Origin: Phycicoccus sp. Root101
Lineage (GTDB): Bacteria > Actinomycetota > Actinomycetes > Actinomycetales > Dermatophilaceae
Reading direction: 5' to 3'
Assembly (NCBI RefSeq): GCF_001426245.1
Contig: NZ_LMCM01000009.1
Span: 372,001-436,000, forward strand
Length of the DNA: 64,000 nt
The notes beneath the pieces were generated by a model. It was not told the origin of the DNA, made no database searches, and was given only the letters and a program-made list of their open reading frames with translations. Each line of letters starts with the position of its first letter. Position 1 is the first letter of the stretch. Made by a program: the position numbers and the translations under genes. Shown piece by piece: positions 58,000 through 59,987 of the stretch.

Positions 58000-58406
58000 C
58001 TCGTGCGCTCCCCTCTTCAGACGGCACGCGCTCGTCGCGTGACGTGACGACCAACACCAGTGACCTGGCGCCCCCTGCAGGGCCGGTCGTGCGAGCAGGA
58101 GCACGGAAGGACGCCATCGGGTCCGCGGTCTGCTGGAGCTGTCGCCGACGGATCGCGGGTGGAGGTCGTCCCTGTGCGTGCCCACCTACCTGATGCGCGC
58201 CCAGCAAGGGCTCGCGTTCGCATCAGTCCGTCAGCTCGTTCCCCTCGATTAGTTCGTGCACTAACTATAAGGGATCTCTGTTTCAATCAGAAATCGAGGC
58301 GTGGCTGCCGGTCCGCGAAGCCGACGCCATGAGGAGCGCACGGGCCCCGTGCAGCGGGACGGTGCCAACGCGTGGGATGGTAGGAGTCCACCAAGGAGAC
58401 GAACAC
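58000..58406. other. 407-bp divergent intergenic region
   Basis: No gene was found. It separates the minus-strand AraC gene from the plus-strand zinc-finger gene. The stretch 58245-58290 is AT-rich against a GC-rich background and carries the inverted repeat at 58249-58264 and a TATAAG hexamer at 58266-58271, making it the likely promoter region. Confidence 0.45.
58249..58264. promoter_or_regulatory. TTAGT-N6-ACTAA operator-like inverted repeat
   Basis: TTAGT and ACTAA flank TCGTGC, directly before a -10-like TATAAG (58266-58271) on the plus strand. A regulator bound here would control the downstream zinc-finger gene or both directions. The binding protein is unknown. Confidence 0.5.
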
Positions 58407-58550
58407 GTGCCGGACCTGCCCCAGACCACGCTCTGCGAGAGCTGCAACGAACCCATCGGCGCGGAACGGCTGGAGGCACTCCCCAACGCCACCACCTGCT
58501 TCGCCTGTGCGAACCTCCGGCGCCCGCCGTCGCGGGGCCGCTCGCACTGA
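58407..58550 (+). CDS. Small DksA/TraR-type C4 zinc-finger protein
   Basis: A 47-residue protein with one C4 zinc finger: TLCESCNEPIGAERLEALPN then ATTCFACANLRR. The wording EPIG.ERLEALP is the DksA/TraR zinc-finger consensus, but the coiled coil that reaches into RNA polymerase is missing. GTG 58407 has AAGGAGA 8 nt upstream. It lies behind the 58249-58271 promoter-like region. It could be a minimal RNA polymerase-binding or metal-storage peptide; only the finger is certain. Confidence 0.75.
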   Translation: MPDLPQTTLCESCNEPIGAERLEALPNATTCFACANLRRPPSRGRSH

Positions 58551-58690
58551 CCCTGCCGCCGACCGGCTGGCGGTGACCAGCTGGCGCCGGTCGGGTGAGG
58601 GGACGACCAGCACGGGTGGTTCGTCCCGTCACGCGAGACACACCCCGAACACCGTGGACGGGTTCCACCGACCCGTGCTCCACTGGTGGC

Positions 58691-58771
58691 ATGTCTTCGA
58701 CCACCGCAGTGATGCGCACGCACATGGGCTCCATGTGCTGCAGCGTCATGCGGTGTTGCTGCTGCGCCTGA
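58691..58771 (+). CDS. Poly-cysteine leader peptide (putative Cys attenuator)
   Basis: A 26-codon open frame encoding a peptide that starts MSSTTAVMRTHMGSM and ends CCSVMRCCCCA: six cysteines, four of them consecutive just before the stop. It lies 234 bp upstream of a cysteine dioxygenase gene. Mycobacteria use short poly-Cys ORFs as cysteine-responsive attenuators of sulfur operons; ribosomes stall on the Cys codons when cysteine is scarce. Repeated TGC codons next to GCAGC allow alternative pairing, and a stem follows at 58791. No strong ribosome-binding site is seen, and internal ATGs at codons 8, 12 and 15 are possible starts. Confidence 0.6.
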   Translation: MSSTTAVMRTHMGSMCCSVMRCCCCA

Positions 58772-58790
58772 CCCCGGCCCGCACCAGCCC

Positions 58791-58812
58791 CGACGCCCTC
58801 TTCGCGGCGTCG
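58791..58812 (+). promoter_or_regulatory. Hairpin after the poly-Cys leader (possible attenuator stem)
   Basis: CGACGCC and GGCGTCG form a 7-bp stem with an 8-nt loop, 19 bp after the leader stop codon and before the second leader ORF. Its position fits a structure that depends on ribosome position on the Cys codons. Confidence 0.45.
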
Positions 58813-58835
58813 CCCGAACCCACCGGAGACGTTCC

Positions 58836-59057
58836 ATGGCCGCCAGCCACACGGCATACCGCCGCATCCACCTCGACCTGCTCCTGATCCAGGGATCGGT
58901 CTGTCGTCGCACGAACACGGCCCGAATGTGTTGCCACCGCACGCATCTCGCCGCGATCCCCGCGACCTCCCAGACCATGAAGACCCACCCGCAGGAGAAG
59001 GACCATGACCGCCATCACCACCGCCGGGACCCCCGGCATCAACCGCTTCACCCGTAG
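58836..59057 (+). CDS. Second leader-like ORF overlapping the cysteine dioxygenase start
   Basis: A 73-codon frame with GGAGAC 5 nt before its ATG. Its N-terminus MAASHTAYRRIHLDLLLIQG then SVCRR resembles the short leader peptides of Streptomyces sulfur operons (pattern RR-HVDL-x-SA-CR), and it continues through ARMCCHRTH before running 53 bp into the dioxygenase gene in another frame. The overlap means that translation of this frame would affect initiation at 59005. The C-terminal His/Arg-rich part is probably not a protein domain. The leader role is an inference from position and Cys codons. Confidence 0.45.
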   Translation: MAASHTAYRRIHLDLLLIQGSVCRRTNTARMCCHRTHLAAIPATSQTMKTHPQEKDHDRHHHRRDPRHQPLHP

Positions 59058-59490
59058 CCAGCTGCTCCGCACCGCCGCCCTGTTCGCCACCGACCCGGAC
59101 CTCGAGCGGCTGGTCGACCTCGACGCGCCCGAGCGCACCTGGAAGCGCCTCGACGCCACCGACCACCTCGAGATCTGGCTGATCGGCTGGCCCGTCGGGA
59201 CGTCCACCGGGTGGCACGACCACCTCGACTCGGAGGGCGCGTTCCTGACCGTCAAGGGGACCCTGGCCGAGCACTCCTGGTCGCAGCGCACCGCCCACGA
59301 ACGGCTGCTGACCGAGGGCGAGGGCCGCTCGTTCGGGAGCCACCACGTCCACGACGTCCACAACCTCGGCGACACGCCAGCCCTGTCGGTGCACGTGTAC
59401 TCCCCCGCTCTGCGGGGGATGACCCGCTACGCGCTGCTCGACGGCACCCTGCACGCCACCGGCGTCGAGAAGGCCGGTGAGCAGTGGTGA
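59005..59490 (+). CDS. Cysteine dioxygenase family protein
   Basis: A 161-residue cupin. The 3-His iron site is in STGWHDHLDSEGAFLTV and GSHHVHDVHNLGDTPALSVH, and VYSPALRGMTRYALL follows. The enzyme oxidises the thiol of cysteine (or 3-mercaptopropionate) to the sulfinate with O2. The ATG at 59005 has AGGAGAAGG about 8 nt upstream. Its stop overlaps the rhodanese start. The upstream leader ORFs rich in Cys codons suggest that its expression follows cysteine supply. Confidence 0.9.
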   Translation: MTAITTAGTPGINRFTRSQLLRTAALFATDPDLERLVDLDAPERTWKRLDATDHLEIWLIGWPVGTSTGWHDHLDSEGAFLTVKGTLAEHSWSQRTAHERLLTEGEGRSFGSHHVHDVHNLGDTPALSVHVYSPALRGMTRYALLDGTLHATGVEKAGEQW

Positions 59491-59987
59491 CGATCACGAC
59501 CGAGGCTCCCCGCACGTCCGACGTCCACTGGGAGACCCGCCTGTTCAGCGACCCCGCGGCCACGTCCCGCGCCCGCGGCTGGGAGGCGCCGGCCTATGCA
59601 GGGATCGACGACCAGCTCACCGACGCGCGCAGCCGGCTGCGCCGCATCAGCGTCCGAGCGGCCTTCCAGGAGGTCCTGCACGGCAGGGCCCTCCTCGTCG
59701 ACATCCGGCCTGCCGCGCAGCGGGCCGCCGAGGGCGAGGTCGCCGCACACCTCGGGCCGCTGGTCGTCGAACGCAACGTCCTCGAGTGGCGCTTCGACCC
59801 CCGTCACGAGGCGCGGCTGCCGCAGGCCGGCTGGGAGACCCGGGTGCTCGTGCTGTGCCAGGAGGGGTTCACCTCGTCGCTGGCGGCGGACGCGCTGCTG
59901 CGGCTCGGGGTGCACCGCTCCACCGACGTGGTCGGCGGGTTCAGGGCCTGGCGCGAAGCCGGCCTGCCCGTCGAGCCTCAGAGGTAG
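59487..59987 (+). CDS. Rhodanese-like sulfurtransferase
   Basis: 166 residues. The single rhodanese domain spans residues about 55-160 (EVLHGRALLVDIRPAAQRAA, then VLVLCQEGFTSSLAADALLR with the active-site Cys, then DVVGGFRAWREAGLPVE). The extra N-terminal 50 residues are unrecognised. GTG 59487 overlaps the dioxygenase stop (GTGA). Together they handle sulfur: the dioxygenase makes cysteine sulfinate and the sulfurtransferase moves sulfane sulfur. It converges on the GroES-like gene with a 10-bp overlap. Confidence 0.88.
   Translation: MTITTEAPRTSDVHWETRLFSDPAATSRARGWEAPAYAGIDDQLTDARSRLRRISVRAAFQEVLHGRALLVDIRPAAQRAAEGEVAAHLGPLVVERNVLEWRFDPRHEARLPQAGWETRVLVLCQEGFTSSLAADALLRLGVHRSTDVVGGFRAWREAGLPVEPQR

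Follow-up and report, generated by a model that had tools for sequence, protein, structure and literature searches.

Two cysteine-containing leader reading frames, putatively coupled by a conserved RNA fold, upstream of a cysteine dioxygenase-rhodanese operon in Phycicoccus and its relatives

Poly-cysteine sORF attenuators of mycobacteria (the Ms4533A type) were reportedly described by Canestrari et al. in 2020 and, by the title of that work, are said to be leaderless. The mycobacterial biosynthetic operons are switched on when cysteine is short. TnaC is the model for ligand-inducible arrest of a nascent peptide. Leaders of cys operons without terminators occur in Mycobacterium, P. acnes and B. 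longum, and their mode of regulation was termed unknown in 2005 (Seliverstov 2005, PMC1262725, excerpts). Work on the poly-Cys leader of M. smegmatis is cited in the available parts of PMC9094748 and PMC13236596, the latter of which mentions translation attenuation in this species. The Salmonella mgtCBR leader carries the tandem attenuators mgtM and mgtP, which sense ATP and proline and act on transcription (PMC3641672, excerpts), and ermB is subject to an antibiotic-sensing translational attenuation with two leaders, ermBL and ermBL2 (PMC8274638, excerpts).

The window analyzed here, a stretch of 64,000 nucleotides from Phycicoccus sp. Root101, contains two short leader frames ahead of the genes for a cysteine dioxygenase (CDO) and a rhodanese-like protein. 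A preliminary description had listed a poly-Cys frame (ORF1), a 7-bp stem and a second frame (ORF2) overlapping the CDO start, and these coordinates and features were confirmed. ORF1 has 26 codons, six of them Cys, and ends in CCCCA; the stem CGACGCC/GGCGTCG joins 58791-58797 with 58806-58812; ORF2, which begins MAASHTAYRRIHLDLLLIQGSVCRR, follows a GGAG at 58825-58828 and overlaps the CDO start (59005) by 53 nt. The reading frames are as follows.

58691-58771, + strand: ORF1, MSSTTAVMRTHMGSMCCSVMRCCCCA and stop, a probably leaderless poly-Cys leader kept in 15 tandem loci
58836-59057, + strand: ORF2, a leader of the RRIHLDL type that overlaps the start of CDO in the +1 frame and has a conserved Cys codon 23
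59005-59490, + strand: CDO (Pfam CDO_I, 80 bits)
59484-59987, + strand: rhodanese-like protein (Pfam Rhodanese, 26.7 bits against a cut-off of 22.2), its start overlapping the CDO end

Residue R44, which we take to be the mark of cysteine-specific ('Arg-type') thiol dioxygenases, was invariant among 20 aligned CDO sequences. The leader region is directly preceded, on its own strand, by a small ORF at 58329-58550 that encodes a DksA/TraR-type C4 zinc finger (Pfam zf-dskA_traR, 38.5 bits).

Like the mycobacterial poly-Cys attenuators, ORF1 is short, places a run of Cys codons beside its stop and precedes genes of cysteine metabolism. Here, however, the target degrades cysteine, a second leader comes next, and that leader's Shine-Dalgarno sequence is predicted to pair with the 5' end of the mRNA itself. 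ORF2 shares R-x-H-x-D-L followed by Cys with the leader family NF042934, but its frame runs into the structural gene and is preceded by another leader. As far as the excerpts go, mgtCBR likewise has two short ORFs in one leader, one of them read via codon supply, whereas here Cys codons occur in both leaders, ORF1 looks leaderless and the control looks translational; ermB also has two leader peptides before one gene, with other sequences. Among the literature matches listed, which covered few subscription papers, no CDO leader and no combination of poly-Cys with RR-HVDL leaders was described. Each of the three kinds, poly-Cys attenuator, RR-HVDL leader and tandem attenuator, is known by itself. 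The cysteine leaders of the cited papers, in the parts available, precede biosynthetic operons, whereas in several actinobacterial families the same kinds of parts stand before the gene of an enzyme that degrades cysteine.

The CDO gene was found in 29 of 58 genomes (the strain's own and relatives, E <= 0.001) and in 74 of 186 genomes of the family (E <= 1e-15), in 28 of 53 genera. The upstream DNA of 86 CDO loci, 30 from the first set and 56 from the family set, was read by script with a loose leader filter; long or chance Cys frames were removed by eye, and this reading covered just part of the loci lacking a flagged leader. Both leaders in series were detected at 15 of the 86 loci (the tandem loci), belonging to all 11 genomes examined of the genus (Pedococcus/Phycicoccus) and to three further genera (L042, L043, L044 and L045). 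Since all 11 genus genomes hold both ORFs at homologous places, the pair is more than chance, and the earlier claim of two leaders of different kinds in series before CDO-rhodanese is supported. A rhodanese, searched with the window's own protein only, follows CDO in 14 of the 15 tandem loci and was undetected in L045.

Single leaders were also found. A Cys-run leader alone precedes CDO at eight of the 86 loci, every one in genus g18 (MSSTAA..PVMPAAVMCCRCCR type), and flagged Cys frames in L020 and L077 (genus g26) may be of this type. An RR-HxDL leader alone was present at 12 loci (L012, L013, L017, L026, L046, L055, L057, L060, L061, L082, L085, L087). A third type, MSSxAT...WHxCR(Y/V/L) and stop, was recognized with close variants at 11 loci, with no rhodanese detected beside CDO. 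Eight of these sister leaders (L015, L016, L018, L065, L069, L074, L075, L076) have one Cys in the tail and the same RNA platform; the WHxC is mostly followed by R, then Y, V or L, and the stop, and these leaders precede CDO genes with no rhodanese detected beside them. The CDO leader of L013 unites both features, its sequence RRLHLDLHLTQGQVCCC having an HLDL motif and ending in three Cys codons before the stop. Among 60 further CDO loci, 59 of them in other families, an RR-HxDL leader was present at eight, three of which belong to genus g164 (L122, L128, L138), and at one locus (L111, family f45) both leaders occur one after the other, the second overlapping CDO. Poly-Cys and RR-HVDL leaders are joined in one device, of which one-stage and two-stage versions can be compared in nature.

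ORF1 contains four to seven Cys codons in all 15 tandem loci, and its third-last codon is Cys in 14 (the exception being L011). Its start is GTG in L008. Codon 2 is TCT in 14 of the 15 loci; this codon accounts for 0 of 191 Ser codons in CDO plus rhodanese and for 17 of 699 in the long genes of the window. Loss of the Cys tract or frame in close relatives had been named in the preliminary description as a refutation; on checking, the Cys codons and the overlap frame of ORF2 were found to be kept. Upstream of ORF1 lies a promoter-like block.

58623-58639, + strand: imperfect palindrome GTCCCG-N5-CGAGAC, centred about -60 from the putative transcription start
58655-58660, + strand: -35-like TGGACG (TGGAC in 13 of 15 tandem loci), with an 18-nt spacer to the -10-like motif
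58679-58684, + strand: -10-like TCCACT (T..ACT in 15 of 15 tandem loci), 6 nt 5' of the ATG

Because the conserved -35- and -10-like motifs stand at a near-fixed distance from the ORF1 start, with one extra base in L007, transcription probably starts at or beside the ORF1 ATG, which would make ORF1 leaderless. We infer this from conservation, since a sigma-70 consensus scanner called no promoter at the -35/-10-like block. The GAGAC half of the palindrome is kept in 14 of 16 aligned loci (absent in L044 and L046), and the palindrome is a possible candidate site for an activator of the CDO operon. A GTCC...GCGAGAC box is partly visible in genus g18.

The distance from the ORF2 start to the CDO frame takes eight distinct values in 16 loci, and every one equals 1 modulo 3. 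The frame stays open past the CDO start in 15 of these; in L044 it stops earlier, so the overlap is not universal. All 16 retain a Cys behind HLDL, at codon 23-26. The window's ORF2 matched no NCBIfam family, either whole (E <= 1) or as its first 25 residues (E <= 10). Against the curated cut-off of 27 bits of NF042934 ('putative leader peptide', RR-HVDL), the leaders of L044 (its ORF2, 28.3 bits), L017 (28.6) and L138 (37.1) scored above and those of L026 (23.1), L111 (22.8) and L042 (12.6) below, while the leaders of L013 and L045 had no NCBIfam match. The 45-bit cut-offs of NF042936 (Ms4527A) and NF042933 (Ms5788A) were reached by none of the leaders searched. A profile-profile comparison of ORF2 with the RR-HxDL set, both alignments being hand-chosen and the second including L044, gave a probability of 96.1 and E 3.4e-9, and R, H, D, L and C are invariant across 12 hand-chosen RR-HxDL leaders. 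By this sequence evidence, ORF2 is a diverged relative of the NF042934 family, linked through same-locus intermediates; the proposed tie to RR-HVDL leaders is thus made through relatives, with the profile comparison.

The transcript from the ORF1 ATG to the ORF2 ATG is predicted to fold into four helices, P1, H1, H2 and H3.

58691-58699, + strand: P1, 5' strand AUGUCUUCG, the ORF1 start codon and codons 2-3
58702-58755, + strand: H1, within ORF1, CACCGC/GCGGUG with inner GCACAUGG/CCAUGUGC
58758-58788, + strand: H2, the Cys-codon run paired with a segment 3' of the ORF1 stop
58791-58812, + strand: H3, the 7-bp stem of the preliminary description, with both-side changes in 7 of 7 pairs and 71% of cells paired
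58824-58832, + strand: P1, 3' strand CGGAGACGU, including the ORF2 Shine-Dalgarno GGAG (58825-58828)

This fold was, with small variations, the minimum-energy structure in all 12 tandem loci tested of the 15, with z-scores of -1.86 to -5.90 against dinucleotide shuffles. None of 200 shuffles was as stable in 11 of these loci, and eight were in L010. Among the three remaining tandem loci, L043 folds alike, P1 is interrupted in L011 (as it is in L008) and L045 has P1 without the inner helices. ORF1 is also coding, and for this reason its codons were redrawn with the peptide fixed in 15 loci. The real leaders were more stable than these synonymous recodings (mean z -2.66, n=15); at most 1% of recodings were as good in 9 of the 15 loci, and 4 of the 15 were not significant at 5%. 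P1 itself was rare among recodings (<=2%) in seven loci and unexceptional (0.09-0.49) in eight.

Covariation was counted over 15 loci in a model-fitted alignment, which is biased towards structure and was used because MAFFT misaligns H3; antisense rows were excluded by an E-value limit of 1e-8, and L046, with no recognisable ORF1, was left out. There were 33 double-change cells against 15.1 +/- 2.7 in shuffles, and 14 pairs with double changes against 8.2, a level reached by 0 of 500 shuffles; slid controls were lower throughout. In this fitted alignment 86.3% of cells were paired, against 82.4% after shuffling. Double changes fell on 3 of 9 pairs in P1, 4 of 24 in H1, 0 of 11 in H2 and 7 of 7 in H3, so that H3 holds most of them. 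H2 combined 97-98% paired cells with zero double changes, and H1 is rebuilt with other letters in L044. Taken together, covariation, shuffles and synonymous recoding support the modelled four-helix fold. An alternative pairing of ORF1 AUGCGGUG with ORF2 CRCCGCAU is visible but was discarded, being no better than in shuffles (fractions 0.115-0.835).

By joining the mRNA 5' end to the Shine-Dalgarno sequence of ORF2, the conserved RNA would make the two leaders one coupled device, not two independent controls. The dual control proposed in the preliminary description is supported as to the two leaders; its 7-bp stem is an arm of the four-helix RNA that would couple both. A helix from the 5' end to a Shine-Dalgarno sequence offers a concrete, testable route by which a leaderless ORF could control the one behind it. 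In Rfam, a search of 58200-59300 with E up to 5 found no family; the sole match was sub-threshold, antisense and outside the element (17.4 bits against 70).

The fold extends beyond the tandem loci. A covariance model built from 12 loci scored three held-out tandem loci at 99, 105.9 and 53.6 bits and six WHxCR loci at 25.9-28.1 bits (E 1.9e-4 to 6.8e-4); these six matches end at or near the CDO start, and P1 there covers the CDO Shine-Dalgarno itself. P1 was predicted with near certainty in all eight MSS-type WHxCR members; the leaders L067, L072 and L073 had a weak P1 or none. In g18, P1 has been remade, its 5' end AUGUCGUCGA and partner UCGACGACAU representing a compensatory change; in 7 of 8 loci this partner does not cover the Shine-Dalgarno but is found a few nt 5' of it. 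Own pairs of g18 and tandem loci gave -10.8 and -11.4 kcal/mol and swapped pairs -8.25 and -8.64, and 0 of 20000 permutations matched the own-versus-swapped difference, a count that weighs less than independent loci would since the loci are related. For L111 the same fold is predicted from an entirely different sequence (CCUCGG/CCGAGG); it is partly present in L113, and the Cys leader of L106 shows no P1. By these models, other genera have comparable devices, with leaders of the Cys-run or WHxCR type, at the CDO ribosome site or next to it. Model R1, run on the 186 family genomes with strict filters, gave forward matches in 15 genomes, all at CDO, a setting that missed the g18 and WHxCR versions, so diverged copies elsewhere could escape it. 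Two extra R1 matches were the palindromic H1 in antisense. On the 60 further CDO loci R1 found nothing convincing and missed L111.

A second pairing, P2, is predicted in 13 of 13 folds and involves the following site.

58993-58997, + strand: CDO Shine-Dalgarno AGGAG, predicted to pair as P2 with the ORF2 Leu codons right after HLDL

Against synonymous recoding P2 had a mean z of -0.97, with values below 0.05 in 3 of 13. Because recodings of the Leu codons mostly pair as well, P2 is kept as a suggestion from the folding model.

The best explanation of the locus, to which we give a probability of about 0.6, is a two-stage translational attenuator acting in cis. Ribosomes would load at the bare 5' end and read the leaderless ORF1. 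With P1 closed, the ORF1 start and ORF2 would be shut together, H1-H3 filling the loop and the Cys codons lying in H2. A ribosome or a ribosome queue at the 5' end would break P1 and make ORF2 readable, and ORF2 would take ribosomes through the HLDL...Cys segment and over the CDO start, and CDO would then probably be translated through coupled initiation or because its own ribosome site is unfolded. The sensed quantity would most likely be charged tRNA-Cys, through how fast ribosomes read the Cys codons of both leaders.

Masking calculations, which ignore ribosome bulk in the loop, locate the switch. The mean free fraction of the ORF2 Shine-Dalgarno rose from 0.14 in bare RNA to 0.44 with nt 1-16 masked (15 loci). 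With a lone ribosome stalled on the Cys codons it was 0.09, with one queued behind 0.11, and with two queued, reaching the start, 0.42. Of the states modelled, only masks covering nt 1-16 open the ORF2 Shine-Dalgarno, and therefore the switch would lie at the 5' end; a lone stall leaves P1 closed, so stalling would open it only through a queue reaching the start codon. In this model either frequent loading, when cysteine is plentiful, or a long queue, when it is short, would open the switch. Catabolic physiology favours frequent loading and mycobacterial precedent favours the queue. We put even odds on the operon being on when cysteine is plentiful; that it is on when cysteine is short is credible at somewhat lower odds, and a weak or other response to cysteine would be rather surprising.

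The sign bears on the rival that comes closest, a classic low-cysteine attenuator, in which a stall on the ORF1 Cys run blocks H1/H2, weakens P1 and turns the operon on, CDO-rhodanese serving sulfur re-use. The Cys run adjoins the stop as in mycobacterial cys leaders (PMC1262725, PMC9094748 and PMC13236596, excerpts), the main run begins at codon 22, by estimate about two ribosome lengths from the start, and a queue of two could hold P1 open at the value of 0.42. Nevertheless P1 stays closed on a single stall (0.09), the Cys codons of ORF2 would stall ribosomes too, and induction by shortage is odd because CDO consumes cysteine. We regard this reading as possible but doubtful.

An unlikely rival is arrest of the TnaC kind, in which cysteine or a related thiol would arrest the nascent peptide, at HLDL...C of ORF2 or at an ORF1-type MRCCCCA or WHxCR tail, and open the operon in excess. 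It has catabolic logic on its side, and the strict conservation of non-Cys residues (in RR-HxDL leaders and in the one-Cys WHxCR tail) fits peptide-specific arrest better than codon starvation, although RNA pairing partly explains the conserved letters. Somewhat less probable still is Rho-dependent attenuation, in which reading of ORF1 and ORF2 would shield the transcript and slow reading would lead to early termination. No intrinsic terminator was found in 58500-59100, and Rho has been proposed for actinobacterial cys leaders (PMC1262725, excerpts), but that a Shine-Dalgarno sequence is masked by the conserved structure speaks for control of translation. That ORF1 and ORF2 go unread and the region is solely a structured 5' UTR or protein-binding RNA would account for the strong RNA fold in the members tested and is very improbable, since the Cys codons, the tail near the stop and the frame of ORF2 survive indels and the same-place leaders of relatives match a curated leader-peptide family.

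Extending the two-stage attenuator, we tentatively picture a leaderless-mRNA relay, in which the start-codon region would block the next ribosome site and 5'-end loading would be the switch. Its tails (CCCCA, CCRCCR, WHxCR) would be interchangeable, and it could be chained to a gene-overlapping RR-HVDL leader, giving a two-checkpoint reading of cysteine for catabolism with a sign opposite to that of biosynthetic attenuators.

In the strain's own genome, the pattern TGYx4 had 31 matches; among the 30 examined, ORF1 was the only start-bearing short Cys leader. One match (L166, C4:3467-3478, minus strand) is a short frame, PGAGRLRRHCCCC and stop, which ends in CCCC, has no ATG or GTG and lies upstream of TlpA- and CcdA-like frames (named by eye). 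The RRxHxDL pattern had nine matches in this genome, with ORF2 as the only clear leader; the short frame L035, another match, precedes no recognised sulfur gene. A search of the genome with NF042934 returned just one weak match, located in a long frame; ORF2 was missed.

A CGT Arg codon occurs at 59053-59058 (CDO codons 17-18) in 10 of the 11 genus genomes, CGT being 8-9% of Arg codons, and CGT-A(G/A)C forms the ORF2 stop in nine of those ten; the ORF2 stop inside CDO may be selected. In S. lividans, the leaderless metL leader MSTTSDRTPATEATTTPGARCMCRRMCAF before metNIQ is Cys-rich and has Cys third from its end like ORF1 (PMC8079986, Table 4). It was published as methionine-dependent (PMC8079986), and by its composition it may read cysteine rather than methionine.
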